The notes under the pieces are model-generated. The model saw only the letters and a list, made by a program, of their open reading frames with translations. It searched no databases and was not told the DNA's origin. A stretch of 64,000 nucleotides of DNA. It comes from Kitasatospora paranensis. GTDB taxonomy: Bacteria > Actinomycetota > Actinomycetes > Streptomycetales > Streptomycetaceae. How positions within the stretch are numbered: the first letter of the stretch is position 1; each line of letters starts with the position of its first letter. The translations under genes and the position numbers were made by a program. The DNA lies in assembly GCF_039544005.1 (NCBI RefSeq), contig NZ_BAABKV010000001.1, positions 1 to 64,000 on the forward strand, in the 5' to 3' direction. Below, in pieces: positions 254 to 30,746 of the stretch.

Positions 254-292
254 GGTTTGCTAACTGGGTTTCTCGGGCTGCGCCGGGGGTGA

Positions 293-660: not shown

Positions 661-706
661 CTGTGCTCTTTCGGCGGCGTTTCCTGTGCTCTTCGGCGGC
701 GTTTCC
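661..706. repeat. Short tandem repeat, two copies of about 22 bases
   Basis: CTGTGCTCTTTCGGCGGCG at 661 is followed by the near-identical CTGTGCTCTTCGGCGGCG at 684, each trailed by TTTC. The second copy is one T shorter. No gene covers it. Confidence 0.6.
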
Positions 707-1272
707 CGGAGCACCGGACGGTCCTGTCCCACCGGCCTTCGAATGGGCGCGAGACACGAACGGTCAACGTCGCGTCCATCGCCCATAACGGCTCTATCAG
801 GCCGCGCCCTCGGCGAGAATATCAATTCCCTTCCGCTCTCTTTTCATGCCACAATCAGAAAGCCCATGGGGCGCAGCTCTGGGAAATCGAATTCTGACAC
901 GCCGAAAAGAGGCCTACGGCCCTCACCACCGACACCACGAACACCAATCCAGACCCCCCAAGAAATCCCACTCGGCATCAACGGGGCAATCCCCAGAGCA
1001 GCACCGGCAAACCGAACACCGGACAGAACAGACCGGGACGGCGGCCCGGGCAGCGGCCACGGCGCAGCAGTACGACGGCCCTGGACGACGGCCCTGGACG
1101 GCGGCCGGGACGGCGGGCAGGGCGGGCCCGGAGACGGCCAGGCCGGAACGGGCCAGGACAGGCCTGGCGGCCGATCAGGACGGCAGCCAAAGTGCACAGC
1201 ACCGGGCGACGGGAGCGGGCCAGGCGGGGCGCAGCGGACGGCCTGGCGGCCGTCCGGGAGGGCGGCGAGGGC

Positions 1273-11179: not shown

Positions 11180-13719
11180 AGGTCAGTCCCCTTCTCGGTG
11201 GCGACGAGTTCGGCGCGGCCCAGGCCGCGCAGCTTCAGGTACTCCTCCTGGCTGGCCGGGTGCTCGACCGGCCCGGTCAGGTGGCCCTTGAGGAGGTAGT
11301 CGCCCGGCTCCCCGCGGTACGGCCAGGGCTGGCGCTCCGTCAGCGCGATGCCGTCCGTACCGAAGTACACGACCGTGCCGGGCTTCGCGTGGAGGGCGCC
11401 GGCGTGGCCGATGACCTCCTTGCCGTGGCGGTACTTCATGTCCAGCAGCGCCGCCCGCGCTCCCGACCACACGTACGCCGCCCACTCCGGGTGGGCGTAG
11501 GGGTCGCGGGAGAACCCGGCCTGCCGCTGCCAGGTGACCACGTCGCCCGCCTGGCCGAGGATCTCGACCCCGGCCGGGAGCGCCTCGCCGACCGGGGTGG
11601 TGCCGGAGACCAGGCGCGGGCGCTGGGCGAAGCCGCCCAGGCCGAACAGCAGCACCGAGCGGACCGCACGGGAGGCGAGGTAGGCGGCCTGCCGCTGGCG
11701 CTCGTCTGCGTGCAGCTTGGAGAGGTTGGTCAGGTCCGCCCACGCGGCCTTCAGGCGCTTGCCCCACTCGTCGAGCGGCTTGCCGTCCTCGAAGAGCAGG
11801 CCGCCGAGAATCTCGACCTTCCACGGCCCCAGGTGGTTCGACAGGGCGAGGTGGACCTCCGCGCCACCCGCCCAGGTGGTGAACGTGGCGCCGGGCTCGG
11901 ACGGGTAGACCCAGGCGCGGTCCCCGGTGACCGGGGCCGGGAGCAGGCCGACGTGGTTCCACCCGGCCGGGACCGTGACGCGCACGTTCCAGTGCGAGCA
12001 GGACATCAGCGCCTTGACCTGCTCGGCCTCCGTCATCGCCGCGAACGCAGCCGCCGTAATCCGGCGCGGGACACCGACCGGGGACTTCCACAGGTGCTTT
12101 GCATAGGCGAACGTGCGGTCGTACTCGACGAGGGCGGGCAGCTGCTCCGGCACCCGGGGCGGCAGGATCAGCTCGGTCCGGCCCTGCCCTCCCGTCGCGT
12201 GCAGCAGACCCCGCAACTCCTCGGACAGCACCGGGTAGCCCCCGGCCCACTTGCCCGTGGTCGGGATGGTGCGCGACCACAGGTCCCGGCCGGTCTGCGA
12301 CGGCGAACCCATCAGCACCGCGTCGTCCCAGTGCCGGCGCAGCGCCTGCCACAGCAGCGTGAACGCCTGGCGGCAGGTGACGACGTCGGCGCCGTCCGGG
12401 TCGAACCACTCCCCCATGGACCGGATCTCCGTGACCGGCCCGTCCGGGGAGGCGGCGGGGGCGTAGCGGCCGACCGGCTGGCGCTGGTGGACGAAGTGCC
12501 CGGCCAGCTTGTCCCGGCCCGAGCCGACCGCGGTCGTCCAGCGCTCGGACGGGGTGTTCAGCCACGCGGCGACCGCGTCCTTGAGCGTGGAGTAGCGCTC
12601 GGCGCCGTCGTGCCACGGGGCACCGGCGGTGATGTAGATGCGCTCCGTGCCCGGCGCGGTCGCCAGGACCGCGTCGAGGATCTCCCCGGGAGTGCGGGTG
12701 CCGAGGTCGAGGCGCACCACGCGGTCGCGCACCGCCAGCTCGCCGGTCGCCGCGTCCAGGAACACCGTCGAGCGGGCCTGCTGTGTGAAGTTCGGGCGTT
12801 TGGACACCAGGCCGGTCGTCACCGCCTCGAACCGGGCACCGGCCGGGCCCTCGGGAAGGGCGGGCAGCTCACGCGGGCCGACAGCGACCGGAGCAACCGG
12901 AGCCGCCGGGACAGCGGGCGCAGCCGGGGCGGGCTGCTCGACGACGGCCTGGTGCTCGGCCTCGGTCGGCGCCTCGACGGGCGGGGCGGCCGGGGTCGGC
13001 TGCTCGAGTACGGCAGCCGGGCGGGTCAGCGCCGGGGCAACCGCGGCGACGGGCTCGACGACCGGCTCGGCCACGGGCGCCGGGGCGGGCACAGCGGCGG
13101 CGGCCCGGTCGTCGGCCTTGGCGGCGCGGACGGCGGCCGGGGTCGGGTCCAGCAGCGGGGCGATCCGCACGACGTCGCCGAGCGACAGGCCCGAGGCCTT
13201 CGCGATGGCCGGCGCCTGCGCGCCCTCGTACCCCGCGAGCCCGGCCACCCTGCGCGCACGCTGGGCGGTGAGCTTGTCCAGCTCCTTCTGCGCGGCCGCG
13301 ACCAGCTTCTCGGCGGCCGTGATCTCGGTGCGCAGCTCGCGCAGGCCGGCGAGCTCGGCGGTGTACGTCTTCCGGTCCATCAGCGACTCACTCCCCTGGG
13401 TGTCGGGCTGGTGGGCAGTGTCGTGGGGGCGGGCCTGACGGGCCAGGGTGAGCCAGCCGTCGGGGCCCTGGGTGCCGTGAATGTCAGCCAGACCGGCGAG
13501 GAGGAACGCATAGGCACCGCGCTTCGGGGCGCGCGGCTGCGCGGTGCCGTTCTCCCACTTGGCGAACGTCTCGCGCCGTGTCTGCAGCGCCTCGGCCACC
13601 TCGACCTGGGTGAGGCCGGCGGCCTTGCGCAGCCGCTCCCGCTCGGCCGGTTCCGGCAGGTCACCACCGTCCCGGGCCCTGGCCAGCAGCGCGTCCACCG
13701 CCGCGAAGATCTCAGACAT
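11176..13719 (-). CDS. Tap-like telomere-associated protein candidate
   Basis: An 847-residue protein. The N-terminus (residues about 20-75; AERERLRKAAGLTQVEVAEA, then ETFAKWENG and PKRGAYAFLLAGL) is the XRE-type domain I know from Streptomyces Tap proteins. A long helical and Ala/Pro-rich linker follows to about residue 300. The C-terminal 550 residues (from about TGLVSKRPNFTQQ) are globular and do not resemble the classic Tap C-terminus that I recall. The start is the ATG at 13719 with AGGAGG just upstream; an in-frame GTG at 13722 lies too close to it. It is coupled to the Tpg-like gene. The replacement of the C-terminal region may reflect a different telomere sequence. Confidence 0.55.
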   Translation of the reverse strand: MSEIFAAVDALLARARDGGDLPEPAERERLRKAAGLTQVEVAEALQTRRETFAKWENGTAQPRAPKRGAYAFLLAGLADIHGTQGPDGWLTLARQARPHDTAHQPDTQGSESLMDRKTYTAELAGLRELRTEITAAEKLVAAAQKELDKLTAQRARRVAGLAGYEGAQAPAIAKASGLSLGDVVRIAPLLDPTPAAVRAAKADDRAAAAVPAPAPVAEPVVEPVAAVAPALTRPAAVLEQPTPAAPPVEAPTEAEHQAVVEQPAPAAPAVPAAPVAPVAVGPRELPALPEGPAGARFEAVTTGLVSKRPNFTQQARSTVFLDAATGELAVRDRVVRLDLGTRTPGEILDAVLATAPGTERIYITAGAPWHDGAERYSTLKDAVAAWLNTPSERWTTAVGSGRDKLAGHFVHQRQPVGRYAPAASPDGPVTEIRSMGEWFDPDGADVVTCRQAFTLLWQALRRHWDDAVLMGSPSQTGRDLWSRTIPTTGKWAGGYPVLSEELRGLLHATGGQGRTELILPPRVPEQLPALVEYDRTFAYAKHLWKSPVGVPRRITAAAFAAMTEAEQVKALMSCSHWNVRVTVPAGWNHVGLLPAPVTGDRAWVYPSEPGATFTTWAGGAEVHLALSNHLGPWKVEILGGLLFEDGKPLDEWGKRLKAAWADLTNLSKLHADERQRQAAYLASRAVRSVLLFGLGGFAQRPRLVSGTTPVGEALPAGVEILGQAGDVVTWQRQAGFSRDPYAHPEWAAYVWSGARAALLDMKYRHGKEVIGHAGALHAKPGTVVYFGTDGIALTERQPWPYRGEPGDYLLKGHLTGPVEHPASQEEYLKLRGLGRAELVATEKGTDL

Positions 13720-13724
13720 CACAT

Positions 13725-15582: not shown

Positions 15583-17532
15583 TCAGCCGAGCCACCCCGG
15601 GGGAATGAGGGCGTTTCGGTTCCCGTCCTCGTCGGGGCGCCAGTTGGCGATGACCGCGTCCTGGAACCAGCTGTCGGGCAGGTTGGCGTGATCGCTGACG
15701 ATGATCTGGAGGCTGCCCTCGTTGAGTTGTGCCACCTCGTTGAGGAGGGTGAAGTAGGCGGTGACGGTGGCCCAGTCGGCGTCCTGGATCTTCGAGGCGT
15801 CGCGCGGCCTCTCGGGGAAGAACGCCTGAGTGGGCTGGTCGAGCATGAGGAAACCGGGCACCGGCCGGTCGTTGCGCCGCAGATAGGTGTGCAGGGCGAG
15901 ATGGGCCACAAGGTGGTAGCCGATCCAGTTCTTGGCACTGCCGATCCGGGTGAGGGGCAGTCGGCCGGCCGGGCGCCTGACGACGACGTTGAGCAGGTTG
16001 AGACTGATGCTCACCTCTGTCGCGTCTGCGGCCTGTCCGAGGTCGAGGCGTTTCGCCCACGCCGTCATGTCGGTGGCGATAGCGGCCAGGCAGCGTTCGG
16101 TCTCGGCGGCCACGTCGTCCTCATCCGCGAGGACTTGGAGCGCGGCGGTCTGTTCCTCGGCCAAAGCCAGGTTGTGGCGCAGCCTGCTGATGTCGCTGTC
16201 CGAACCAGTACGGGTGAGGGCTTCGGCGATCCGTCCCTGGATGTGCGCGATGCGGAGGTTCTGTTCCTGCAGGTTGCGCATCCGTTCGTCGCTGGCCATC
16301 AGTTCTCGCAGTTGCACTCCGTTGAGCCGCAGGCGTTCGGCGACGCCGTCGCGTTCGGCCCGCAAAGTGCGCCGGTGCTCTTCACGAACGGGCTGCAGAG
16401 TCTGTGCGTGGGCAAGTTCCTCGGCCAGTTGGCCGGTGAGTTCGGCGATGTCCTGGGCCGACGGGTCGGGTTGCGGAAGAGGCTGGGTACACATCGGGCA
16501 GATGCTCGTGTCGTGCTGGTGCTCGGGGCCGAGCAGGGCGAGCGTCTTGAGGCGGTCAAGCTGGAGGTGGAGTTCCCCGGTGAAGGCGCGCCCCTGCTGC
16601 TGCCATCGGTCGACTGCCGCCAGGGCCTCGTCGTACTCCTGGAGCTGATCGCGCAGCGTGCGGCGTTCGTCGTTCAGTCCCTGACGCCGGTCGGACAGGT
16701 TGAGCGGTGCTGCGGTTCGCGGCGAGGCGGCCAGTGCCTGCTGCAGAAGATCGACGACCTGGGTGGTGTTCGGTGCGGCGGGAACGTCGGTGAGCAGTCC
16801 CTCATTCTGCGCGAGGCGCACCAAGGCGAGCCCGTTGGCGTCGGTTGCGGCTTGGTGGCGCAGGGCGTCGTCGTACTTGCGTTGCGCCGCACGCTGGGCA
16901 CGGGCCGCTTCCGTGAGGTGGTGGCGCCGCAGGGCTTGTTCGGGGCCCGCGGCCCCGAGGAAGTAAGGCAGCGTGTCTTTGAGCGTCTGCGTCATTCCAG
17001 TTTCGGTCTGCCGGTGGAACAGCGCTTTCTTATCGGCGATCTCGTTCTGGTTCTGGAAGCAGAGCAGGGCCGCGTGGGCGATCGAGACGTCGAAGGCATT
17101 ACGCCCGGCGCCGGCAGGTGGCTGGAAACGGAAGTCCTCGATCCCGAGCCGGGCGCTGACCTCACTGCGCAGAGCCGCCACATTGGAGTTGGGGACGAGT
17201 TCGCCGATCGCGGGGACATCGAGTCGGCTGTCGCCGGTCTGCACCATGGCGTGGAGTGTGGAGGCGCCGGCGGGACGGGGCCGGGCCAGGACCATGCGGC
17301 TCCCGTCGCCGAAGACGACGAGGAGTGCGTACCAGCCGACAGTCTGGTCGATCGGCTCGTCGGGCAGGTTCGGTGTCCTTCGTCCGAGGCAGTAGTCGAC
17401 GATGTCGAGCACCTCGGACTTCCCGGTCTCGGACTCACCCGTGATGATGTTCAGCGCCCCGGGACGGAAACGCAGGACTCTCGGGGCTGTCCCGCCGTCT
17501 CGGTGGTACATGGCCAGGGCGAGCAGCTGCAT
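15583..17532 (-). CDS. DUF3732-type SMC/Rad50-like ATPase of an ABC-3C system
   Basis: A 649-residue ABC ATPase of the DUF3732 type. Walker A is GESETGKS (residues 32-39). A long helical middle carries a Rad50-style zinc hook, CPMC at residues 345-348. Walker B-like LMLDQPTQAFFPE lies near the C-terminus, followed by SDHANLP. DUF3732 proteins are known as the ATPase of three-component ABC conflict systems (ABC-3C), proposed to sense invading nucleoprotein. The gene is last in a minus-strand operon, after the middle and third components. The start is the ATG at 17532; a weak GGAG lies 13 bases upstream. Confidence 0.85.
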   Translation of the reverse strand: MQLLALAMYHRDGGTAPRVLRFRPGALNIITGESETGKSEVLDIVDYCLGRRTPNLPDEPIDQTVGWYALLVVFGDGSRMVLARPRPAGASTLHAMVQTGDSRLDVPAIGELVPNSNVAALRSEVSARLGIEDFRFQPPAGAGRNAFDVSIAHAALLCFQNQNEIADKKALFHRQTETGMTQTLKDTLPYFLGAAGPEQALRRHHLTEAARAQRAAQRKYDDALRHQAATDANGLALVRLAQNEGLLTDVPAAPNTTQVVDLLQQALAASPRTAAPLNLSDRRQGLNDERRTLRDQLQEYDEALAAVDRWQQQGRAFTGELHLQLDRLKTLALLGPEHQHDTSICPMCTQPLPQPDPSAQDIAELTGQLAEELAHAQTLQPVREEHRRTLRAERDGVAERLRLNGVQLRELMASDERMRNLQEQNLRIAHIQGRIAEALTRTGSDSDISRLRHNLALAEEQTAALQVLADEDDVAAETERCLAAIATDMTAWAKRLDLGQAADATEVSISLNLLNVVVRRPAGRLPLTRIGSAKNWIGYHLVAHLALHTYLRRNDRPVPGFLMLDQPTQAFFPERPRDASKIQDADWATVTAYFTLLNEVAQLNEGSLQIIVSDHANLPDSWFQDAVIANWRPDEDGNRNALIPPGWLG

Positions 17533-17563
17533 GGCGGTTCCAGAACTCCTTGTACGGGGCGGG

Positions 17564-18049
17564 TCAGGGACGGACGCCGAGAACGGTGAAGGCGCGAGCC
17601 GGGTCTGTCGTGGCAAGCCAGCGGCCGACTAGTACGGCGGCGCGTGCGCATTCGGCGACCTCCTCGCCGGGGGCTTGCGAGGAAGGTTTCGGAGCGCGGG
17701 GGCATGTCAGGCCTTGCGGACTGGTGCCTATGGCCTGATGGCGCAGGGCGGTGCGCAGGCTGGCGCGGGTGTAGTCGGTCAGTGCGGCAGCTCGTTCGGC
17801 GAAGGCCGCCTGGTGGCGCGGGTTGGCGTGGGCCCAGGCCATGAGGGTCACAGTGGACTTACCCGGCAGTGAGCGTCGGGTGTCCTCTGGAAGGACGAGC
17901 GGGAGGACGAGGAAGGCGCTGGGCCACGGCAGAGGGCCTTCCACCTTCTTGACCGCGGCGTGGACGCTGCTGGCCAGGAGATAGGCGCCGAAGGCGGGGT
18001 TGAAGAGGGCTTCTGCCTCGGGAACGCGGTGATGAGGGGTCGTGGTCAC
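17564..18049 (-). CDS. ABC-3C middle component
   Basis: A 161-residue protein with the layout of the three-component ABC system middle component: EAEALFNPAFGAYLLASSV, then FLVLPLVLPEDTRRSLPG, then a helical second half. It lies between the third component and the ATPase. The GTG start overlaps the upstream stop as GTGA, so the two proteins are probably made together. It probably bridges ATPase and effector, a role taken from the family. Confidence 0.8.
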   Translation of the reverse strand: MTTTPHHRVPEAEALFNPAFGAYLLASSVHAAVKKVEGPLPWPSAFLVLPLVLPEDTRRSLPGKSTVTLMAWAHANPRHQAAFAERAAALTDYTRASLRTALRHQAIGTSPQGLTCPRAPKPSSQAPGEEVAECARAAVLVGRWLATTDPARAFTVLGVRP

Positions 18050-19305
18050 TGGTCCTGCGTCTCTTCCCGGGGCTTGCACAGGTCCTTGTAGTCCGGGTGC
18101 CAACCGACGGCACGGTCCGGGACCGCGGTGTCCGCTTGGTCGGCCAGGCTGTGCATGGTGCCGCGGCCGATCCACGGCGCGGTGATGCTGCCGGGGCGGG
18201 CGGGTCTGTCGGCGGCCCTGTCCATGGTGTCGTCCAGTACGGCCTGGCCGAGGGACTCGCGTTCGGGTGCGGGCATGTCGCCGTGGAAGCGGCGGGTGCG
18301 ACGGCGGAAGACGTGCTCCCACTCGTCGTGCAGTTCCTGCTCGTACTCACCGAGCCGCTCGGGTGTGATCTTGAAGGTGCGCAGCCATTCGGAGCGCTGG
18401 GCGCGTGCGTAGTGGTACTCGCGCAGGTGCATGGCGATCTCCGGATCGGGCAAGCTGATCCATCGCATCTGGTTCACGACGAGTTGGTCCTCGTAGCCGG
18501 CGATCTCGGCCTGGGTGAGGTTGCGCAGGGTCTCAGTGATCGGCAGGTTCTTTCCGGCGTACCGGTCGAGGACTTCGTCCCTGCGGCACATGAGCTCCTG
18601 GGCGCTGACCGCAGGTCGCTTGCGCTGGGGGTTCTTGCGGTCCAGCAGGCCGACAGCCATGCCGTACCACCACCCTTTGATGTCGTCGAGAGCGGCTTGA
18701 GCGTGGTCGCTCGGTGTGATCCCCAGCTCTTTGGCCAGACTAGGGTTCAGGTCCGACATCACCGGGGCGCCGTCATCGACCGTGATGGCGTCGACCAGTT
18801 GGTGGCGCTGCGACGGAGTCAGTGCCATGAACAGTTCGCGGTCTTTCGCCGTGCCGTCCGCGCCGTTCTCGTCCCCGGCGATCTTCTCCATCCGGGCCAG
18901 TGCGGCACGAGTGTCCCGGTCGGCTCCGGAGCGGAGCATGGAGAGAAAGGTGTCGGCGGGAGCGACCTGGGTCGAGACCAGGCGCAGCAGCGGCATCGCT
19001 GCGCTCGAGGAGGCTGCGATGGCTTCCAGGGCATCGATCCATGAGGCGACCGAGCGCCAGAGATCCTTTCCGGCTTCGCTCAACGGGCCGGCTGCTTCGC
19101 GGTGTTTGGACTGGATCAGTTCCAGCGGGGTGTAGCTGTCAGGGTCCAGGAACTCGATGTCGTCGAGGACTTCCATCCGGACGGCGCAGGACGCGTCTTC
19201 CCAGCTACGGCGCGCGAGTTCCAGCAGAGCCAGTTCGCACTGGTAGAGGTATCCGGTCATCTGGCCTGCGGCCGAATGCGAACCAGCTTGCGCCACGTTG
19301 CCCAC
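18046..19305 (-). CDS. ABC-3C third component with nuclease-like N-terminal domain
   Basis: About 419 residues if the GTG at 19305 is the start; an ATG at 19404 is also possible. The N-terminus reads QMTGYLYQCELALLELARR, then EVLDDIEF and LELIQSKH. This is the usual pattern of a PD-(D/E)xK-like domain (acidic residue, then E-x-x-Q-x-K) at the front of ABC-3C effectors. The C-terminal half (GWWYGMAVGLLDRK, MRWISLPDPEIAMHLREYH) fits the family's C-terminal domain. It is first in the operon of three and probably the effector. Confidence 0.75.
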   Translation of the reverse strand: MGNVAQAGSHSAAGQMTGYLYQCELALLELARRSWEDASCAVRMEVLDDIEFLDPDSYTPLELIQSKHREAAGPLSEAGKDLWRSVASWIDALEAIAASSSAAMPLLRLVSTQVAPADTFLSMLRSGADRDTRAALARMEKIAGDENGADGTAKDRELFMALTPSQRHQLVDAITVDDGAPVMSDLNPSLAKELGITPSDHAQAALDDIKGWWYGMAVGLLDRKNPQRKRPAVSAQELMCRRDEVLDRYAGKNLPITETLRNLTQAEIAGYEDQLVVNQMRWISLPDPEIAMHLREYHYARAQRSEWLRTFKITPERLGEYEQELHDEWEHVFRRRTRRFHGDMPAPERESLGQAVLDDTMDRAADRPARPGSITAPWIGRGTMHSLADQADTAVPDRAVGWHPDYKDLCKPREETQDQ

Positions 19306-19528
19306 TACTGATCGTGCTTGCCCGAGCGGCGCGCTCCTGTGGTTCCGCTGATCACCTGCGACCGACGGTCCGGGCGGTCTGCCGCTCCCCCGTGGCGACA
19401 ACATAGCACTGGTTCGGCAGCCTTCACCCAGCTCTGCCGATGAGCTGTCACATGCTCGACTGCGAGGGCAGCCACTTGTCAGGCGGTGGGCCAGGCCCTA
19501 TCCAAAGACGCGCACAAACATCACACCG

Positions 19529-21863
19529 TCAGGCGACTTCGGGGAGCTCCGGTTCCAGGAACCGAGGCACAACTGGCAGGCCGAGCGCGTCGAGCGCTGC
19601 GGCCTGTTGGGAGGTGAGCTGGGCGGCGTCGTACCGGCGCTGGTCGATCCAAATGTCCAGTCTGACGTGGTCGGTACCGACGACCTCGACATGTCCGTCG
19701 GGAACCTGAAGGTGGCCTTCGCGTCGGAGGAACCTGCGCGCGGCGCTCAGTCCGCGCGCGAAGCTCATCGCCGGGCCGGTGGTCTGCCGAAACAGCAGCA
19801 GGGCATGGGGGTGAAGGTCCGGGTACTGGCGTGCCAGGAGAGCCAGTTGGGCGAGCTGCCCCGGCTCCAGGATGTGGTTCTGCTCGATCTGGTGGTCCAG
19901 CCACGCCCCCAGTGAGAGGTTCGTCTCGGCAGCGACCTGGTACGTGAGCCGCCAGTCGCCGGTGGCGAGGCAGCGCCGCAGCCGGGCGCAGTTGTACTGC
20001 CAGTCGATGCTCCAGGCCGGATTCCAGCAAGGGTCGGTGGAGTTCAGCGCCTCGATGCGTTCGGGGGCAGCTCGTCCTCGCGGGTCATGGCTCGCATCTG
20101 GTCGAGCCACCGGGCCAGGCCGGCGTCCACGTCGGGGGTACCGGCGTGGACTGCGAGGGTGTGGTGGGCGGTGGCGAAGTCGCGGGCCAGGGCGAGGTTG
20201 TGTTCGAAGCTGCCAGGTGGGTGGGGCCAGGAGATGCGCAGCGCGTACAGGGCGAAGGCCTGGTCGGGGTCGAGGGTGCCCTCGGCATAGCGGTTGCGCT
20301 GTTCGCCGATCCAGGAGCCGAGGTGGACGCCGGCGGAGTCCCGGTGGTCGGTGGGGACTTCGAGATGGCCGTGCTCCTCGTAGAAGCGCATGGCGGCCTC
20401 GTAGCCGCTGTTCCAGCCGTCGCCCTGGAACTGGTGGGCTCGCAGGGAGAGTACGTCGGCGATCTCGTCGGGGCGCTCGGGCTCGGTCAGGACCGGGTCC
20501 TCGGAGCGGCGGCCAGAGCCGCGGCGCAGGCGGGTGTAGAACTTGCTGTCAGCGGTGCGCAGCCCGTCCAGGATGGCCCACAGGTCGCGGAAGTCGGAGG
20601 ACTCCATGGCCTCACGGGTGGTTTGTCCCGGGCGGATGTACACGGGGATGATCAGTGTGGCGATCTTGCCGCTGCCTGGCGGCTGGCGCAGGGCGCGGCC
20701 GAGGGTCTGGATGATGTCGACGACGCTGCGTTTGGGGTCGGCGAACAGCACCGCGTCGGCTTCGGGCATGTCGACGCCTTCGCCCAGGCATCTGACGCTG
20801 CTGAGAATGTGCGTGTGGGACTGTCCGGGCAGGAGGGCGGTGCGGCTCTGCCAGGAACTTCCCGCGAAACGCCAGAGCTTGGTGTTGCGCTCGGAGCGGG
20901 GCTGGCGGCTGTCGACAGCGGCAGCCCACAGTTGCATCGGCTGGCCGCCCTGGGTGAAAGCCGTGGCGGTGCGCGGCAGGGTCCGGGCGAAGGTGCGAGC
21001 GGCCGCAATCAGGCGGTGGAACGTCAGGACACGGCTGAGGCGGTAGTCCTGTATGGCGCGCAGCAGTCCCACTTGCATGGCTGCCAGGCGCAGTCCGTCC
21101 AGGTGAGGGGTGGTCTCGGCCGTGGTGAGGATGTCGTGCAGGTCCTCCGCGCTGATCACGGGGACGACGACGCGGTAGTCGGCGAGGATGCCCTGGGCGA
21201 TGGCTTCGGCCAGTTCGAGGCGGAAGACGACGGGTCCGAACAGTGCGGGATTGTCCATCGATGCCAGTGGTTGCTTGTACGCGCCGGGTTTTCTGGACTT
21301 CGGGTGGCTCCAGCGGCGTGGCGTCGCCGTCATGTAGAGGCGGCGCTGCGCGGGGATCTGGGCATCATCGTGGATGTCACCCCAGCTCTTGTCGAGACTG
21401 CCGGTGGTGTGATGGGCCTCGTCAGCGACGGCGAGGGCCCACTCCGGCAAGCCGTGGCGGCGGTGAGCCTCGACGATCGCAGGCAGGGACTGGTAGGTGG
21501 AGAAGACGATGGTCGGGCCGCTGTGGTCGGCGACACGGCGGGCGGGTTCGGCCGGGCTGGTGGTGAACGGGATGCACAGGGCGCCTCGGCCGGACGGGGG
21601 CAAGGCGCAGACCGCGATGTGCTTCTCGTCCGGGCGGCCGCGGTCCCACTCGCGTGCTGTCTGCGCCACCAGATCCTGGCTGGGGGCGAGCACGAGGATG
21701 TTGCCGTGGGGGTGTAGGTGTCGGCGCTGGCCCGGGCGATGACGGTCTTGCCGGTGCCGCAGGCCGCGACCACGGTCACTCTTGAGTGGCGCTGGAGGCC
21801 TGCGGTGATGGCGCCGACGGCGCGTTGTTGATGCGGACGTAGTCGGATGGGCTTGTGGGGCAC
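19529..21863 (-). CDS. Second DEAD/DEAH-box helicase with helicase-associated repeats (two frame breaks)
   Basis: About 778 residues after repair. RLRPHQQRAVGAI and Walker A CGTGKT start the helicase core. ADEAHH, TATP and QTLGRALRQP are motifs II, III and VI. C-terminal Trp modules (GHLEVPTDHRDSAGVHLGSW, ETNLSLGAWLDHQIEQ) are helicase-associated repeats. Breaks lie near 21710 (in a G/C run after DTYTP) and near 20066 (after DELPP); one added base at each restores the reading. The start is the GTG at 21863, though coding sense may extend further upstream. Same layout as the 8015-10356 gene, so a paralogue. It precedes the ABC-3C operon on the same strand by about 220 bases and may belong to it. 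Confidence 0.75.
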
Positions 21864-22320
21864 GTGGGCGTCCTCGGCGACCGGCAGCTGGATCGGCGGG
21901 GCGATCGCCGTGCCTGCATGGCTCGTGCCCCGCTCCGGACACCAATTCGATCGGCTTTCCGGCGTTCCTTGTCAAGCAGGCTTCGAAATTCTCGTCGATT
22001 TGACTGCCAGGGTGGCGCCTTCAGGACCCTAAATGTCATTCTGATTCGTTCGGTTCGCCTTGATGCCGCCGTTCCGCGTGAATCGGCTGAGCCGCGGGCG
22101 CCGGGGAGCCACCTCGCGGCTCACCGAGCCAGTACCATCAGCCGGGTTTCAGCAGGCAGGACAGGAGCCACCCCGCCAGGCAGCCGAAGGTGACGTGTCC
22201 CGGCCCCCGCAGTACGGAGGCCAACCACTTCAGCCGCCTTCTGCGGCGGCCCCTTCGGAGCGAGGAAACGCTCCTCCTATTCGGCCGCCCGGGCGACCCT
22301 TCTCATATTCGGCAGATCAC
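21864..22320. other. Non-coding stretch left of the transposon genes
   Basis: No gene seen. ATTCGGC occurs at about 22279 and 22305, and GAATCGGC at about 22076, close to the ATTCTGCA of the right-end repeats. A TGTCA at 22034 is a second candidate for the left terminus of the transposon. Confidence 0.45.
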
Positions 22321-22417
22321 TGTCAAGAATTGGTGCGCTTTGCCGGATTCTTTTCCCTGTTCCTGCTCCTCGTGCCGCTCGGCGTGATAGCCATGGCCGC
22401 AGAGGCGAGGGAGGGTC

Positions 22418-23422
22418 ATGGATTCGGTAGCGGCTTTGAATCGGGTACGGGCGCGTGAGCTGCCGTTGCACGTCCGGTTCATGGCAGGCGAGTCGACCGG
22501 CTCCTACGTGACCCGCCTGGCCGGCCGCAACGGGCTCGAGGTCCAGCAGTTGCTGGACGAGGTCGGGCATGGCAGCACGAGGGCCGTCGCGCCACACCTG
22601 ACCGAGCTCTACCTCAACCGTCCTGCCGCCGAGCGCCTGGCCGCCCTGGCGGGCCGTCCGCTGGAGGTGATGCGGCGGGCACTCGCGAGCCTGGACGCGG
22701 CGTACCTGCTCGACGACGGTGACGGAACTCCCGCCTGGTCGTTCCCGTGGGCGGTGCGGGACGGCTATCTCGTGCGGGCCTGCGCGTTGTGCGCGGCCCG
22801 CCGCGGCATCGGTGAGCCGGCCTGGATGATGGTGGCGGACCCCTGGCACCTGTGCGCCCGGCACGCACGGTGGTCGGACAACTCCCGTGATCCGCAGACC
22901 CCTTGGATCGACGTGGCCGACTGGCCGCAGATCCTGGCGACGGAACACCAGCGGGTGGCCATGGTGCGGTGCCTGGGCCGCACCGCACGCGCACTGTTCG
23001 CCGACGCGCACACGATGAGCAGAGCCGAATCGAGCGCACCGGACAGACTCCAGTCGATGGCCGACCGGCTCGGGGAGGCGCGGACCGCGTCCTTGTTGTC
23101 CTACCCGCACACCGTGCGCATCGCCCGCGTCCTGGCGCGGGCCGAGCGCCGCCGACTCGGCCGGGAGCTGACGGCGGACTCCTACGAGGACTGGTTCACG
23201 CGCAGCTCACAGGAGTTGGGGCCCAGGCACCGGGGAGTGCTGAGGCGGTGGATGGAGTGCCACAAGCCGGTGCCTGGCCCGGCGCCAAGGCGCGGGGGTG
23301 AGTTGGGGCGGGCCGTGCTGGTCACGCCGCACACACGGATCGCGCCGCTGGATTCGGTGCACCAACTCAGCTGCCTGCCCTCCGGCCCGGTGGCCAGCCC
23401 GTTCGACCGGCCCTTCCTGTGA
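22418..23422 (+). CDS. tniQ: TniQ family target-site selection protein
   Basis: A 334-residue TniQ family protein. The N-terminal GESTGSYVTRLAGRNGL is the family's opening motif. A zinc site is formed by CALC (122-125) and CARH (146-149), followed by the family's HARW. TniQ/TnsD proteins link target DNA to the AAA+ regulator in Tn7-like transposition. It is the first gene inside the left end, with the TnsA-like gene next. An ATG at 22418 follows GAGGGAGGGTC, a good ribosome-binding site. At this length it is a TniQ rather than a long TnsD. Confidence 0.85.
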   Translation: MDSVAALNRVRARELPLHVRFMAGESTGSYVTRLAGRNGLEVQQLLDEVGHGSTRAVAPHLTELYLNRPAAERLAALAGRPLEVMRRALASLDAAYLLDDGDGTPAWSFPWAVRDGYLVRACALCAARRGIGEPAWMMVADPWHLCARHARWSDNSRDPQTPWIDVADWPQILATEHQRVAMVRCLGRTARALFADAHTMSRAESSAPDRLQSMADRLGEARTASLLSYPHTVRIARVLARAERRRLGRELTADSYEDWFTRSSQELGPRHRGVLRRWMECHKPVPGPAPRRGGELGRAVLVTPHTRIAPLDSVHQLSCLPSGPVASPFDRPFL

Positions 23423-23534
23423 CGGCCGTGGTCCGCCAGGAGCGGGGGCGGCTCCCATGGGACGAGGCGCCCCTTATTTATCCGCAGAAAGCAGGTCAGG
23501 GACGAGTGGATGCGGCACGGGAGAGGTGATCCTT

Positions 23535-24242
23535 GTGCAGGTGCGGGTGCGTTACCGCGACGGGGACGGGCGGATGCGTGAGAGTGGCCCAGACCAGGTG
23601 CGGGCGGTGCCGCTGGAACGGTGCGAGCCATTGCGTGAACCACACGCCTACAACGGCCGACCGTCGATCTTGACCCGGTACTGGTCGGCGACCACAGGCG
23701 GCATGGTGGTGTGCGGCAGTGAGCGGCTGATGCACGCGGCCATGCTGCTGGACTACGACGCCGCCATCACCTGCTTCTCGGCCCCCGCGACCGAGATCGC
23801 CTGGGAGGACGGCAGCGCCCATGGAACGGTCAGCCCGGCGTTCTTCGCCCGCACCGCTGACGGGCGGCGGCTGGCGATCGTGCACCCGGGCCGCGCGGAG
23901 CCGGACGGCGCGCGCGAACGCCAGGCGCTGGAGATGGCGGCGCAGGCCGCCGGGTGGACACTGACGGACCTGGACGTCCCCATCGGGGTGCGGCTGGCAT
24001 GGCTGAAGGTGGTGGCCAACTTCCGGTTCCCCGAACTGTTCGACACAGCGACCCGTCCGGCCCTGCTGGACACCTTCCGCCAACCCCGCCCGCTGGTCCG
24101 CGGAGTAGCCGAAGCCGGCCTGCCCGACACCGCCCTCGCCCACGCCTGGCACCTGCTGTGGCGCGGCGACCTCCTCTTCGACCAGGCACGGCCCCTGATC
24201 CCCGTCTCCGCGGCGTGGACCGCCGACACAGCCCACCGGTAG
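23535..24242 (+). CDS. TnsA-like protein with degenerate catalytic site
   Basis: A 235-residue protein placed where Tn7-like elements carry TnsA, the endonuclease that frees the 5' ends. The order CGSERLMHAAMLLDYD, then FSAPATEIAW, then SPAFFARTADGRRLAIVHPG follows the actinobacterial TnsA-like pattern. The Glu is present (residue 63). The expected Asp of the PDFFA motif is Ala (residue 102), and the D/Q-x-K end is VHPG. It is therefore probably not an active nuclease and may be structural. The GTG start at 23535 was chosen because GAGAGGTGA lies at proper spacing; a GTG at 23526 is an alternative. The transposase gene begins eight bases after it. Confidence 0.65.
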   Translation: MQVRVRYRDGDGRMRESGPDQVRAVPLERCEPLREPHAYNGRPSILTRYWSATTGGMVVCGSERLMHAAMLLDYDAAITCFSAPATEIAWEDGSAHGTVSPAFFARTADGRRLAIVHPGRAEPDGARERQALEMAAQAAGWTLTDLDVPIGVRLAWLKVVANFRFPELFDTATRPALLDTFRQPRPLVRGVAEAGLPDTALAHAWHLLWRGDLLFDQARPLIPVSAAWTADTAHR

Positions 24243-24250
24243 GAGGCGTC

Positions 24251-26704
24251 GTGACGCTCGATTTGGCAACCGTGGAGGCACGGGCGACGTCCGTCCACGC
24301 CACGTGGGACCGACGTCGCGTGGACCTGACGCCGGGAGTGACAGTGCGCTGGCTGGGCGGCCTGTACGAGGTCGCCGCCCTCCAAGGCCCCCGGGTGCAC
24401 CTGCACGCCTTGGACGAGAACGGCGAGGACGCCGTCGCGCTGGTATCCGCAGTGACCTGCGCCGCCGACTTCGCGCTGGTGGAGGCGCAGGGCCGGGAGC
24501 GGCCCGGCCCGCGGATCCCGGACGTGAGCATCGTGGACGTGCTCGACCCCCTGGAGCGCGAGCGAATGCGCACCTGGGAGTGGCACCTGCACGAGGTCGT
24601 TCACGGACTGCCGCCTGGCGCGCCCTCGGGCACCCGGCCGCGCCCGCAGTACGACCCGGAAGAGACGTCGCGGTGGAGCCGACTGGACGCCAAGTCCCGC
24701 GAACTCAAGGACCTGGGCTGGGCGAAGGTGTCAGTCGCAACACTGCGGCGCCGCGCCCAGGACTACGAGGAGCGGGGCGTCGCCGGGCTCGTGAAGATCG
24801 TCGCCGGGTCCCTGTACGGCGACACCGACGAGCGGATCGTCCAGTTGCTGCTGGAGGAACTCCGCGCCGGGACGGAGGAGTCCTCGGGGTGGGCCAACCG
24901 GCTGCGGGAGCGGGTCGAAGCCCGGCTGCGCGCTGAGTTTCCGAAGGAGGGCCTGAGCCTGTCGCGGACCGGGTTCTACCGGCTGCTGAAGGACCTGGGC
25001 GTGCGGGTGGAGACGCTGCGCGGGCCGGTGCGCCGCCGCGAGGAGCGGGCCAGCTCGCCCGAGCCGCCCTGGTCGCCGACCCGGGCGGCGATGCTGGGCG
25101 AGGTGGTGCAGATCGACTCCACCGGGCTGGACATCCTGGCTGTCGGCGACCACGGCTACCCGGTCCAGGTCGAGCTGACCGCAGCGATCGACGTGGCCTC
25201 GCGCAGCATCATCGCGGCGATGATCGTGCCCCGTGCTCCGGGCCGCGGTTACAAGGGCAAACGCCTCGGCGGGCGGGCGACCACCTATTTCGATGCGACG
25301 CTGATGCTCGCCCAGGCGCTCGCGCCGATGCCCGGACGGCCCGGCTGGTCGCCGTCCGCAGCGGCCGAGAAGGCCCGCCACCTGCCGTACGCGGACCTGG
25401 TGGCGTGCGACCCGCGGATGGCCGGCGCCGCGGCGCGTCCGGTGATCCGCCCGAAGATGGTGGTCGTCGACCAGGGCAGCATCTACCAGAGTGAGCACTT
25501 CACCGACGTGTGTACCTCGCTGAAGATCTCGGTGCGCTCAGCGCGCGACCGCACCGCCGACGACAAGGCCGTCATCGAGTCGACGTTCAGCGCGATCAAG
25601 AAGCTGTTCTGCCAGTACGTCGCCGGGTACACCGCGCGTGACCTGTCCCGGCGCGGGAAGTTCGTGACCGAGGGCGTCATGTGGCGCCTCAACGAGTTGC
25701 AGGACCTTCTGAACGAGTGGATCGCGCTGGGCTGGCAGCAGCACCGCCACGAGGGCCTGCGCGACCCGCACCTGCCCGGGGTCGTGCTGACCCCGAACCA
25801 GATGTACGCGGCGCTGGTGGCCTGCGAGGGCTACGTGCCGCTGCCCCTGTCGGAGTCGCAGAACCGCAAGCTGCTGCTGTGCGAGTGGCGGCAGGTCACC
25901 GACAAAGGTGTGCGGATCGGCAACCGCACCTACGACAGCCGGGCCCTGCAGGAGTACAACAAGGAGCCGTCCGGGGTACGCGGGAAGGGCATGAAGTGGC
26001 CCATCCGCCACGACCCCTACAGCCCGCGCTACGTGTGGCTGTTCGACCAGCGCAAGGAGCAGCGCGGCGAAGACCCTTGGGTGGAGGCGGAGTTCGTCCA
26101 CCAGGACCTCATCGGGGACGACTGGTCGCTGTTCTTGTGGGAGACCGCCGAACGCCTGCGGCTCGAGGCCGGCGGCAGCGAGGAGGACCGGCAGTGGGAG
26201 CGCGACATCGCGCTGGAGGTGTCCGAGCTGCGTCGGCGCGCCAGGCAGGGCCCCGCCGACGAGCCGGCCACGCCGACGCGACGCGGCCGCGGGCGTACAC
26301 GCTGGCGCCGCCCCGCGGCCCCGTACACCGGTCCCGGCCTCGCCGTGCGCGCGCCTGCCGTTGGCCGGTACGCGGGCATCCCGGCGCCCGACCCGGCCCG
26401 GGTGCGCCCCGCCAGGTCGCTGAACGTCCCGGCCCACTTGCTGTTCGCCGGCGCGGCCCTGGCCGGCCCCGAACCGTCCCCGACCGCTTCGCCCGCGCCG
26501 CCGGGCGCGAACAGCGTTGACAGCCCGCCCTCGGGCACGGACACCGACGCGGCCCTGCCGGGGCCGGCGAAGGCGCCCGATCCGCGGCGGTGGCGTTCGC
26601 GCACGCTCTCCGGTCGCGCCACCGACCTGTTCCTGCGCAGCCTCGCCCCGGCCCCCGATGACAGCGACAGCCCGGACCCGTCCGGCGACGAGGAGATCAC
26701 ATGA
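24251..26704 (+). CDS. tnsB: TnsB/TniA-type DDE transposase
   Basis: An 817-residue Mu/Tn7-type integrase-fold transposase. An N-terminal DNA-binding region with HTH-like helices (VSVATLRRRAQDYEERGVAG) precedes the catalytic core. The triad is D289 (EVVQIDSTG), D407 (VVVDQGS) and E443 (DKAVIEST), with the usual 35-residue D-to-E spacing. A Mu-type C-terminal beta domain follows (SESQNRKLLLCEW), then a long Pro/Ala-rich tail that may contact the AAA+ partner. AGGAGG precedes the GTG. Its stop overlaps the ATG of the next gene as ATGA. Confidence 0.9.
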   Translation: MTLDLATVEARATSVHATWDRRRVDLTPGVTVRWLGGLYEVAALQGPRVHLHALDENGEDAVALVSAVTCAADFALVEAQGRERPGPRIPDVSIVDVLDPLERERMRTWEWHLHEVVHGLPPGAPSGTRPRPQYDPEETSRWSRLDAKSRELKDLGWAKVSVATLRRRAQDYEERGVAGLVKIVAGSLYGDTDERIVQLLLEELRAGTEESSGWANRLRERVEARLRAEFPKEGLSLSRTGFYRLLKDLGVRVETLRGPVRRREERASSPEPPWSPTRAAMLGEVVQIDSTGLDILAVGDHGYPVQVELTAAIDVASRSIIAAMIVPRAPGRGYKGKRLGGRATTYFDATLMLAQALAPMPGRPGWSPSAAAEKARHLPYADLVACDPRMAGAAARPVIRPKMVVVDQGSIYQSEHFTDVCTSLKISVRSARDRTADDKAVIESTFSAIKKLFCQYVAGYTARDLSRRGKFVTEGVMWRLNELQDLLNEWIALGWQQHRHEGLRDPHLPGVVLTPNQMYAALVACEGYVPLPLSESQNRKLLLCEWRQVTDKGVRIGNRTYDSRALQEYNKEPSGVRGKGMKWPIRHDPYSPRYVWLFDQRKEQRGEDPWVEAEFVHQDLIGDDWSLFLWETAERLRLEAGGSEEDRQWERDIALEVSELRRRARQGPADEPATPTRRGRGRTRWRRPAAPYTGPGLAVRAPAVGRYAGIPAPDPARVRPARSLNVPAHLLFAGAALAGPEPSPTASPAPPGANSVDSPPSGTDTDAALPGPAKAPDPRRWRSRTLSGRATDLFLRSLAPAPDDSDSPDPSGDEEIT

Positions 26705-27872
26705 ACGACCATGTCCGCGCCCGCCCGGTGCCCGCGGCCAAGGCCGCCACGCACCCCTTGCACCTGGCCGATCCCGGGCCGCTGGCGACCAAGGAGGGCT
26801 TCCTCGCCCGGGCTCGACGCACCGTCACCCCGCCGGGCCTTCAAGACAGCGCGCCCCTGGGCACGAAGGTGCGGCTGACCGACCCGCGCCTGGCCTACCA
26901 CGGCACTCTGCTGCCCTTGGAGACCGACGACTTCGCCCGAGGAGTGCACCTCGCCCGGACCATGCTGGTGAAGAACCTGTACGACTCCCCGGCCGCAGCC
27001 CGAACTTCGCCGTCGACGGACCGCGACTTGCCGGCAAGTCGCTACTCGCCGCCAGGATCGGATTCGCCTTCCAGGGCCTGGTCGACCACCACTTCCCCGC
27101 GGACGCAGACCGGCACCCGGTGGTGTACATCCACGTGCCGCACGACCGCAGCGACGCCCTGCACTGGTCCCTGCCGTTCGCGGAGTACTTCGGCCTGGAG
27201 CACTCCCGCTCGCCCGAGACGATGAACCACCGCTCCGTCGACATGACCGGTCCCATCACCCGCGTCATGGAACGCGCCGGCACGCGCCTGGTCATCGTCG
27301 ACGGCATCGAGTACATCAAGGACAACGAGCGGCAGACCGCGTTCGACTACCTGTTTCGACTCCAGGACGCCCTGCCGAGGATCACTTTCCTGTTCTGCGG
27401 CATCGGCGCGCAGGGGATCCTGCACCACGCCCTCGGCGACCACCGCAGCAAGGCGCCCGCAGCGGGCGCCGACCGGCCGGCGCCGCTGGGCATCCCGACG
27501 CTGTGGGTCAGGCCCGTCCCCTACACCGCCGCCGAACCCGACCAGTGGTGCAACGTGCTCGACGACGCCGAAAAGAACCTGCGCCTGTACAAACACCAGC
27601 CCGGCACCCTGGTGCAGCTGGCCGCCTACCTGCACGCACGTACCGACGGCTCCATGCACGCCCTGAACCAACTGCTGTGCCAAGCCGCGCAGACCAGCAT
27701 CCTCCAGCAGACCGAAGCCATCGACCGCAAACTCCTGGAGACCATCCTCACCGGCTACAACGACCCGACATACGACTGCCTGCCAGCCCTGGCCGAACCG
27801 GCCACTGACGAAGCCGACGGCGACCCGCAAGCCCAGGCGAGGCTGGACGACGCGGAACAGTCGGACTCGTAG
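26701..27872 (+). CDS. tnsC: TnsC/TniB-type AAA+ transposition regulator (one frame break)
   Basis: About 390 residues after repair. The N-terminus (MNDHVRARPVPAAKAATHPL) leads to LARTMLVKNLYDSP. The frame breaks near 27000 in a C run, and one added C gives PNFAVDGPRLAGKSLLAARI, the Walker A of an AAA+ protein. Walker B-like LVIVDGIEYI and an arginine-rich second half follow. TnsC/TniB proteins form ATP-dependent filaments that pass target information from TniQ to the transposase. The ATG overlaps the transposase stop. Confidence 0.8.
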
Positions 27873-27904
27873 CACAGCTTTCCAATGCGCTGGGCCGGCT
27901 GGAC

Positions 27905-30268
27905 GTGCCTGCCTTCGGCACGCCAGTTCCCCGTAGCTGGCAGGATCAGCTGGTGACCTTCTCCTACCTGTCGCTGCAGTCCTTCGTCCGTCCTCCCAGG
28001 CTGCTGGTCCTCGCTCCCGAGGGCGAGGACTGGGTGGCGATGTCAGCGGCCGCGCTGGGCGCGGTCGGGAAGGTCTGGGGAGGCTGTGCGAGCGCCGTCG
28101 TCCCGGTCAGCGCCGCGAGCCATGCGGCCCTCGCGCCCTTCCTCGCCCGATACCAGCCCGATCACATCCTGGAATACCAGCTCACGTGGACGACGGCTGA
28201 CCTGATTCATCCAGGCATCCTGGAGCGGGAGTTGAGGGGACTCGACCTGGATGAGCAGAGCTTTTCCTTCAACAAGGAGCTGCTGGCTGCCGATACCTGG
28301 GACGGTCACGCCGATGGAGCGGCCCTGCAGGCGGCCGCAGAGCGACTGCGGGCGGCACACGGCGTCAACAGCTTCGACCGTTCCCAGCCTTGGTTGTTCC
28401 ACCTTGCTGACGATCCCGGCAAGAGCGGCTTCACCGCCCTCAGGGACGTTACCCCGCAGCCGACCGGCGGCGTGCCGATCGGGCAGATCCGCACGCCTGC
28501 TGCCCTGTCCGCCGCAGCACGGCTCGGTGTCCTCCTCGCGGCGGCCGGCGACGAGGCGCAGGCCCCCAAGTCCGAAGCGGACTGGCTCACGCAGGTCGCC
28601 AGAACCCCGTGGAACTCCGACGACCCAGCAAGCCCTTTCGATGCAGCCGCCGCGCTGTGCGCCCGAATCCACCGCGGCTACAACGCGGACCGGTCAAGCG
28701 ATCTCGTCGTGCTCGGCGATCGGCCCGAGGACTTCGCGCTGGCCCAACTCGCCCGCCAGGTTTACGGAGCTACTCGCTGGCTCCCTGGGAGCGCGCTGGC
28801 CTGGCATCATCTGCCCCTCTCCCGGCGCCCAGAGCCCATCACCGTGGTCAGCGCCTCCCTGTCGGAAGAGGAAATCCACGCTCATCTGACCGACCGCTGG
28901 ATCACCCGTGGCATCCGGGTGCACGGCGCCGACACCATGCCGGTCACGATCGTTTCCCCCGGACAGCTCCGACCGACCGGCCGCGACCAGGTCGCGCTGC
29001 TCAACGCCTGGGACATGCCGCTGTCCCTCCCGGTGGAGGAGACCTCGGACGGATCCCTGGTCTCGGCCGTGCGGATGCCCGTCCAGGTCCCCGCCCCGCT
29101 CGACGCGGCACGGCACCGCTGGCAGGTGGGGATGATCTCTACCAGCCACCCTGTCCCGCCCCTTTCCGACTTGTCCGGCCCCAGCTTGGTCGCAGCCGGC
29201 GACGAGCGGGAGACATTCGTGCGAGCCGCGGACGGCGGGATCACTTACGCCTCCAACCGGGTCGACTTCGTCCCCGCCGGTGCGTCGCTCGCCGGCTCCC
29301 TCGCCGGCCCCAGACTCGTGTGGCCCTCGCTTGAGCGGATTCTGCGCCTCACCGCCGAGCCCGACGAGATCCGCCCCAGCCCCGCCGGGAAACGCGCCCG
29401 CGTCGCGAAGCGTCTACTCGGATCCCGAACTGCCGTCGAAGCCCTGGCCGCACCAGCGCCGTGGGCGCTGCTGTCGCACTGGCTACCCGGTCACGACCGC
29501 TCGGCCCTTCCGGCAGACAGTGCCTGGGAGCTCAAGTCCGGGGCGTTCCTGACGTGGGAGGCCATCGCCGCCGCCTCCGGCAACTGGGCCCAGGCCGAGC
29601 TACGGGCGCAGATCGACGCGTGGAGCACCTGCGGGCTCCTGCGCCGCGGACTGGTGCTCGGCTGCCACGATTGCCCACGGGTCGAGTTCTACCCCATCGC
29701 CGAAGTAGCGCAGCAGTACACCTGCCGACGCTGCGGCAGCAGCAACACGCTGGAGCAACCACGGTGGAAGCCGATCCGCAACGAGCCCACCTGGTTCTAC
29801 GAACTCCACCCGGCGATCACCGAGTTGATCGCCAATGACGGCAACTACGACCTGCTCGCCACCCAGTTCCTCCGCTCGAAGGCATGGGCCGGCGCCTGCC
29901 TTGTCACCGAGGAGTTCGAACTGGTCCAAAACGGCAAAGCCGTCGTAGAGTTCGACTTCGCCGCAGCAACCGTCGAGGGACTCTTCCTGGGCGAGTCCAA
30001 GAAGAACGACTGCCTCGCCGCAACCGCGAAAGCTACCCTCACCGAGCTCAACAAGCTCCTGAACGGATGCCGCACACTCGGCGCGACGCACCTCGTCCTT
30101 GCCACCCCCAAGGACACCTGGAAACAGGCGACCGTCGACGCCATCGACAAGCAACTCCAAGGCGACACAGCGCAGGGCGTCAGCAGCCCACAGGTGCTGC
30201 TTCTGACATGCCTGGGGACCAACCCGAAGATCACAACCCTCGACGGTGCCCCGTTCACCATGGACTGA
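27905..30268 (+). CDS. Zinc-ribbon protein with C-terminal PD-(D/E)xK-like nuclease domain
   Basis: A 787-residue protein of unknown family, last gene of the transposon and about 300 bases from its right end. Residues 1-570 are a mixed alpha/beta region I cannot assign. CHDC (587-590) and CRRC (607-610) make a zinc ribbon. The C-terminal 170 residues read EFDFAAATVEGLFLGESKK: D684 and E697-x-K699 match a PD-(D/E)xK nuclease core. It may be a cargo defence nuclease or a transposition factor standing in for the degenerate TnsA. The GTG at 27905 is the first marked start, but the frame is open upstream into the previous gene, so the true start may overlap it. Confidence 0.65.
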   Translation: MPAFGTPVPRSWQDQLVTFSYLSLQSFVRPPRLLVLAPEGEDWVAMSAAALGAVGKVWGGCASAVVPVSAASHAALAPFLARYQPDHILEYQLTWTTADLIHPGILERELRGLDLDEQSFSFNKELLAADTWDGHADGAALQAAAERLRAAHGVNSFDRSQPWLFHLADDPGKSGFTALRDVTPQPTGGVPIGQIRTPAALSAAARLGVLLAAAGDEAQAPKSEADWLTQVARTPWNSDDPASPFDAAAALCARIHRGYNADRSSDLVVLGDRPEDFALAQLARQVYGATRWLPGSALAWHHLPLSRRPEPITVVSASLSEEEIHAHLTDRWITRGIRVHGADTMPVTIVSPGQLRPTGRDQVALLNAWDMPLSLPVEETSDGSLVSAVRMPVQVPAPLDAARHRWQVGMISTSHPVPPLSDLSGPSLVAAGDERETFVRAADGGITYASNRVDFVPAGASLAGSLAGPRLVWPSLERILRLTAEPDEIRPSPAGKRARVAKRLLGSRTAVEALAAPAPWALLSHWLPGHDRSALPADSAWELKSGAFLTWEAIAAASGNWAQAELRAQIDAWSTCGLLRRGLVLGCHDCPRVEFYPIAEVAQQYTCRRCGSSNTLEQPRWKPIRNEPTWFYELHPAITELIANDGNYDLLATQFLRSKAWAGACLVTEEFELVQNGKAVVEFDFAAATVEGLFLGESKKNDCLAATAKATLTELNKLLNGCRTLGATHLVLATPKDTWKQATVDAIDKQLQGDTAQGVSSPQVLLLTCLGTNPKITTLDGAPFTMD

Positions 30269-30746
30269 ACCAGCCCTCTGCGAGCACCCGAGCCGAGTCA
30301 GCCGAACCAGCGGCAGCCCGAGGACAGGCACACCAACAGCCGACACGAGAAGGGGCCAGGTGATCGTCCCACCGAACCAAGATCAACAGCGCTGAGGCGA
30401 CCCCATCCTCCATACAGCGATTGTCCCGACTCAACTGAACAGCGGTCCCAGATTCTGCAAAGTCACAGGCCACAAGCCATGAAAAGTCAATCACGGCAGC
30501 AAAACCGCAGTTCAGGTAGCCAAGCTCTAAAGTCCCAGATTCTGCAAGCCCAATGGTCAACACATGATCAATTGACAAGATCTTTCAAAGCACCCGGGAC
30601 GGAGCACCCGGCCCGCTCCGAAGCCATGGTCCACGTCGCGATGATCAGCCTCACCTCATGACCCGCCGACTCACCGGCGAAACCACCCCAACGTGGCGCG
30701 GAACCTGACCACCAAGGTCAGGGACGAAACGCCCAGTCAGAGAAGT
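30269..30746. other. Non-coding transposon right end and flank, AT-richer
   Basis: No gene. The transposon's right-end repeats and terminus lie here. Outside the terminus the DNA stays AT-richer than the window average and runs into the immunity gene. Confidence 0.6.
30445..30547. repeat. Two 16-base transposase-binding candidates
   Basis: GTCCCAGATTCTGCAA occurs identically at 30445-30460 and 30532-30547, start to start 87 bases. The second copy is 26 bases inside the TGACA terminus (30573-30577). Same-orientation repeats behind a TGTCA end are typical of transposase binding sites in Tn7-like elements. Confidence 0.75.

Follow-up and report, generated by a model that had tools for sequence, protein, structure and literature searches.

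A Tn7-like transposon of a Kitasatospora chromosome end that probably has the telomere as its outer boundary

Streptomycete chromosomes have fast-changing ends that exchange telomeres with plasmids. The first 64 kb of the Kitasatospora paranensis chromosome (bases 1 to 64000 of a single 8,411,032-bp linear contig, G000; hereafter the window) carry an operon of Tn7-like transposition genes, which raises the question of where the element that contains this operon ends. The original prediction had delimited a Tn7-like transposon at 22321 and 30577. Its five genes were confirmed, tniQ, tnsA, tnsB, tnsC and a last one that we call gene 5, and they are all on the + strand and nearly contiguous (Table 1). 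The assignment to Tn7-like transposons also stood, with TnsABC, TniQ and one TnsB-type end on the right, whereas the boundaries did not, since the unit extends about 22 kb further left to the telomere. We consider it likely that this unit is a telomeric transposon of ∼30.6 kb with the telomere (around position 1) as its outer end and a TnsB-type inner end at 30606, and that it inserts by one-ended replicative joining, replacing the distal arm of the recipient.

The inner end was located by a multi-copy alignment. Four homologous copies align up to ...GGGACGGAGCA, which ends at 30606, and then part; the last aligned letters, ending at 30606, are ...CTTTCAAAGCACCCGGGACGGAGCA in all four. The nearest named copies of the element are those of Streptomyces tateyamensis (G009) and Kitasatospora sp. 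GAS204B. The operon is common to the window, G009 and C2, a linear replicon of genome G003, with 91 to 97% identity, and GAS204B retains only a C-terminal piece of gene 5 together with the inner end. The alignment led us to reject both predicted ends: on the right, the terminus is at 30606 and not at the TTGACA near 30577, and on the left, the alignment of relatives runs through 22321 uninterrupted. Thus, tniQ does not mark an edge; to its left come tap- and tpg-like genes, helicases and Lamassu cargo, out to the telomere. Internal repeats do exist as two GTCCCAGATTCTGCAAR sites, at 30445-30461 and 30532-30548, confined to the vicinity of the right end. They are kept in relatives save for 1 or 2 substitutions and are likely TnsB sites. 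A search of the window for a left partner returned 78 loose matches against 76 expected, none above chance, leaving the inner end as the only one of the two matched ends with TnsB sites that such a transposon should have.

At the outer side, window positions 4-1124 match the first 1,121 bp of G003:C2 with 75% identity, the two assemblies starting no more than 3 nt apart, and on this alignment position 1 therefore lies at or very near the telomere. The 3' strand of this segment folds better than shuffled sequences (z -2.4). The last 40 kb of the right contig end are an inverted copy of window positions 18702-58700 (99.96% identity), and that contig end is simply truncated. The terminal inverted repeat reaches inward to ∼67.4 kb and includes the entire window region. 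Over the 40 kb compared, its two copies differ by small indels only (10 gap openings, 0 mismatches).

The telomere location recurs across independent replicons, both plasmids and chromosomes. Homologous operons lie 16 to 24 kb from replicon ends and point inward in G003 (left end of chromosome C1, with a truncated tnsA, and left end of C2), G022 and G053 (both ends) and G047 (right end). Among 35 listed plasmid records of Streptomyces and Kitasatospora, TnsB is at most 30 kb from an end in 29, where a uniform distribution would give 8.7, and 28 of the 29 genes are transcribed away from the telomere. The P values (9e-16 for location and 6e-8 for orientation) are too small because some plasmids are near-duplicates, though the pattern is plain. 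Operons with a degenerate TnsA in chromosomes of the genus lie 16 to 38 kb from the ends, several of them at both ends. TniQ comes first in most of the telomere-located relatives inspected, e.g., S. angustmyceticus, and last in S. cynarae; S. scopuliridis and Kitasatospora NBC_00039 have a divergent TniQ-like gene or an unassigned DNA-binding gene in its place. In addition, the left ends of the C1 chromosome and the 865-kb C2 replicon of G003 (L132/L138 and L011) share 16,921 bp at 99.994% identity, with one base differing, and by this measure an end was transferred very recently.

In the telomeric elements, the TnsA homologue lacks its catalytic residues, the positions of which we assigned from conservation and the TnsA motif. 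In alignment with interior and circular relatives, FESWLERD is changed to CGSERLMH, HxPDF reads VSPAFF in the window type and WVPQLF in the S. scopuliridis type, and the DxR/K motif is missing. The E, D and DxR/K positions are thus replaced in the window element, which makes Tn7-style cut-and-paste doubtful. Degenerate TnsA forms one supported group (100/97) of 21 rows, 20 of them scored as dead and one, L125, keeping the Asp only, whereas the protein is intact in the 37 others. On contigs of at least 500 kb, all 9 degenerate TnsA but only 2 of the 17 intact ones are found at most 45 kb from an end (P = 2e-5). In a Tn7-like system of Vibrio cholerae, the TnsA active-site mutation D90A yields >95% cointegrates, i.e., replicative transposition (PMC8188705), so 3'-end joining followed by replication is to be expected of Tn7-like machinery whose TnsA is dead. 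By this analogy, the loss of the TnsA residues would predict a replicative, one-ended transfer. The tnsA frame is kept though the catalytic residues are gone, suggesting that the protein retains a structural role.

The sequence that follows 30606, the end of an IS5-family insertion sequence (IS), is found uninterrupted in the genomes of many relatives, where it aligns across the junction, and the remainder of the cut IS5 was not found elsewhere in the window. The G003:C2 inner end interrupts an IS3 at ∼100 bp from the IS3 end, with another copy adjoining, and the missing part of this IS3 was not found in the outer 27 kb. In G009, the inner end abuts an IS1380 gene. Junctions at IS transposase genes, present in 3 of 4 copies, may reflect targeting or simply how densely ISs populate chromosome ends. 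As far as the sequences tell, the arrangement agrees with a one-ended insertion in which the distal arm is lost.

From these comparisons we infer one-ended joining, replicative copying and a role for each protein. TniQ and TnsC would select the target, and TnsB would attach the inner end to it by the 3' strand. With a catalytically dead TnsA, the 5' strand would stay uncut, so that target-primed DNA synthesis would copy the element outward. Given one end and a telomere opposite, replication would stop at the telomere, where a terminal-protein system would complete the copy, and a second end and a resolvase would be unnecessary. In the recipient, a copy of the donor's end would take the place of the distal arm, which would be lost. 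We propose more tentatively, at somewhat less than an even chance, that there is a clade of Tn7-like transposons in which the telomere serves as second end and TnsA as a non-cutting subunit, each jump being a replicative one-ended graft of a whole chromosome end, with its telomere, terminal-protein genes and defence cargo, onto a second replicon.

Several points weigh against a telomeric transposon that moves in this way. The proposal rests on sequence comparison, and the transposition event itself is not among the observations. The tnsC frame is split in the window assembly, where a run of C near 26990 is one letter shorter than in G003 and G009, both open there. The deletion is found in both terminal copies of the genome; it may nonetheless stem from faulty assembly, given that the two copies differ from one another by short indels alone and that gene 5 carries a further frameshift in the right copy. 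The telomere-maintenance genes are assigned in part, as the Tap match is N-terminal only and the Tpg-like protein, with relatives on 28 Streptomyces/Kitasatospora plasmids, has no family match and was therefore assigned by position and homology. The outer part has a ragged boundary. The sequence shared by C1 and C2 of G003 starts at the telomere and breaks off within tnsA instead of reaching the inner end, and near the C1 break (∼17.1 kb) a second transposon type begins, with an AAA ATPase and a transposase; that transfer would therefore have occurred by recombination or involved the second transposon. Finally, G053 and G047 resemble the window at 91 to 94% identity in the helicase and tniQ but at ∼55% in TnsABC, with the drop at the tniQ/tnsA junction, and their inner end differs from that of the window. 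Because of this mosaic and of the sharing that stops inside tnsA, we conclude that homologous recombination shuffles these chromosome ends as well.

The same points could be explained if the element were a relic with dead transposition genes and the end spread only via homologous recombination and telomere exchange during conjugation. The degenerate TnsA, the frameshifted tnsC and the breaks in and next to tnsA are in line with this explanation, and telomere exchange has been described in Streptomyces (PMC7205883). Nevertheless, we regard a relic as unlikely: TnsB has kept its catalytic residues (D289, D407 and E443), the TnsB and TnsC frames are largely open in relatives, four precise inner-end junctions fall at one base in unrelated targets, and the TnsA frame is kept despite the lost residues. 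Less probable still is an ordinary two-ended, cut-and-paste Tn7-like transposon that sits near the telomere by chance, its left end unrecognised or lost. Classical TnsA-B-C-TniQ elements with an intact TnsA do occur in the same genus and on circular plasmids, and a conserved block starts near 19461 in four copies. We rejected 19461 as a left end, however, as this boundary is ragged, occurs also in elements that differ in both TnsABC and inner end, and is missing in G003. The clade-wide telomere location and inward orientation, the failure to find a matching left end above chance in the window and the target IS parts without partner also speak against two ends. Least credible, and in our view very improbable, is that gene 5 is a fifth transposition protein substituting for the lost TnsA cleavage, given that sister telomeric elements with an equally dead TnsA lack it and that its relatives occur in other settings, some inside chromosomes. 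Points in its favour are that the PD-(D/E)xK-like residues of gene 5 are intact while those of TnsA are lost, that the window, G003 and G009 all have gene 5 placed after tnsC and before the inner end, remnants of this arrangement being left in GAS204B and Embleya, and that in K. indigofera a relative neighbours a Mu-type transposase close to a telomere.

Gene 5 is probably passenger cargo of the telomeric transposon, and this cargo is probably defensive. The five genes had been expected to travel together, and they do not: the TniQ-TnsABC elements of G022, G043, G047 and G053 lack gene 5. Outside Tn7-like operons, its relatives lie beside GHKL ATPases, SMC-like, helicase or defence-like genes, or alone. 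Invariant in 11 homologues (20 to 91% identity) are C587, C590, C607 and C610 as well as E682, D684, E697 and K699, and the protein is predicted to be an intact PD-(D/E)xK-like nuclease with a zinc ribbon. The confidence of its AlphaFold model is low overall (58) and good at the C terminus, where residues 472-787 have the fold of Card1/Can2, including the PD-(D/E)xK domain (Z 11.8 to 8bao), and resemble other CARF nucleases down to Z 8.0. Compared with Card1/Can2, gene 5 has a four-Cys zinc ribbon and a sequence identity of ∼10%, its likeness to these CARF nucleases is limited to the C-terminal half, and no type III CRISPR system accompanies it. The model of the N-terminal part (pLDDT 55; best Z 5.6, Rossmann-like only) is too poor to read. 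Gene 5 had no match in Pfam, NCBIfam or PADLOC and, in PHROGs, only a weak match to an uncharacterized family (E 0.008). Allophanate hydrolase, found by a PDB sequence search with an E value of only 0.03, was taken as a chance match. At loci L035 and L027, relatives of gene 5 adjoin GHKL-type ATPases (468 and 683 aa), possibly forming an undescribed two-gene nuclease system. In the G022 and G043 elements, an open reading frame of 1,082 aa follows tnsC in the place of gene 5 (L129 8905-12150 = G022:C1:22905-26150).

Between the telomere and the operon, the window, G003, G053 and G047 have in common an HA-helicase and the Tpg-like and Tap-like genes, and a second HA-helicase directly upstream of tniQ is also found in G009, G053 and G047. 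The segments between these backbone genes vary among elements and carry cargo, which in the window is a Lamassu system (PADLOC E values of 2e-110 for LmuB, 6e-48 for LmuA and 1e-4 for LmuC). As originally predicted, CRISPR components are absent: a repeat scan found no CRISPR-like array and the window proteins scanned gave no match to a cas operon.

Table 1. Features of the proposed telomeric element and its target in the window
Feature	Coordinates	Strand	Evidence
Telomere-proximal DNA, palindrome-rich, outer end of element	1..1124	none	alignment to G003:C2; folding
HA-domain helicase, telomere-linked, putatively TtrA-like by position	8015..10009	-	Pfam HA/Helicase_C; 87% identity with G003
Tpg-like putative terminal protein, 234 aa	10475..11179	-	4-nt overlap with tap-like gene; putative assignment
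Tap-like telomere-associated protein	11176..13722	-	NF047542 telomere_Tap, E 9e-24, residues 4-131 only, below cut-off
Lamassu cargo: LmuB 15583-17616, LmuC 17564-18322, LmuA 18046-19404	15583..19404	-	PADLOC
HA-domain protein and HA-domain helicase adjoining tniQ	19529..21975	-	Pfam HA, ResIII; 91-94% with G053/G047/G009
tniQ	22418..23422	+	Pfam TniQ PF06527, E 5e-11
tnsA homologue, catalytic residues lost	23526..24242 (start approximate)	+	NF033179, 114 bits, over cut-off; alignments
tnsB, DDE transposase, DDE intact	24251..26704	+	Pfam Mu-transpos_C, rve
tnsC, AAA+ ATPase, 1-nt deletion near 26990	26701..27872	+	weak TniB match, E 0.008
Gene 5, zinc ribbon and PD-(D/E)xK-like nuclease, probable cargo, 787 aa	27905..30268	+	invariant residues; predicted fold
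Inner (right) transposon end, terminus 5'-TGCTCCGTCCCGG read inward	30445..30606	+	terminus common to four copies; repeats
Target: last ∼134 bp of IS5-family transposase gene and IS end	30607..30740	+	intact IS copies align across junction; NF033580

Further inward, the window holds other genes of note. A low-GC (0.56) pair at 30747-32068, SUKH/SMI1-type immunity-like and non-specific DNA/RNA endonuclease-like, resembles a polymorphic toxin-immunity remnant. A small Hjc/PD-(D/E)xK-like protein with a weak match to the TnsA family (25.8 bits) is encoded at 32870-33370 and is present in G047 and G043 too. A tandem duplication at 38280-40464 comprises two genes (349 and 338 aa, 77.5% DNA identity) that contain a VNQHVVSRVLLKRFA motif. 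The second transposon type is represented at 42329-44764 by a gene for a transposase-like protein together with one for an AAA-type ATPase; in NZ_CP108210 and NZ_CP106794, similar pairs of a Mu-type transposase and an AAA ATPase are located close to telomeres, and this type may be another mover of chromosome ends.

"Telomeric transposons" of linear bacterial replicons have already been published (Hsieh et al., Science 2025, eadp1973, cited in PMC12669027). As far as the title of that article and its citations go, these are transposon genes bound to the telomeres of linear bacterial chromosomes and plasmids, as here, and on this comparison and the features tested the window element belongs to the same kind. 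The I-E5 CRISPR-associated transposon placed in this class lacks TniQ, whereas the window element has TniQ and no CRISPR. Like Tn7, the window element combines TnsABC with a targeting protein of the TniQ/TnsD family, but it differs from Tn7 in having no TnsD/TnsE pair, no left end found, lost TnsA residues and a telomere as outer boundary. Telomeric transposons are reportedly Tn7-like and from Streptomyces. Actinobacterial TnsA-B-C-TniQ elements, e.g., those of M. avium pP2-4a and an R. koreensis plasmid, encode homologues of all four window proteins; unlike the window element, they have TniQ last and intact TnsA catalytic residues and reside on circular replicons. Tn5053/Tn402 consist of TniA-TniB-TniQ without TnsA, and the window element, which has a TnsA homologue, is thus not of that type.

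The window case corrects boundary assumptions made in delimiting Tn7-like elements. It also offers a testable route by which defence systems, here Lamassu, would ride on chromosome ends. A transposon that owns a telomere would be a direct cause of the turnover of streptomycete chromosome ends, and a dead TnsA would explain why one end suffices.

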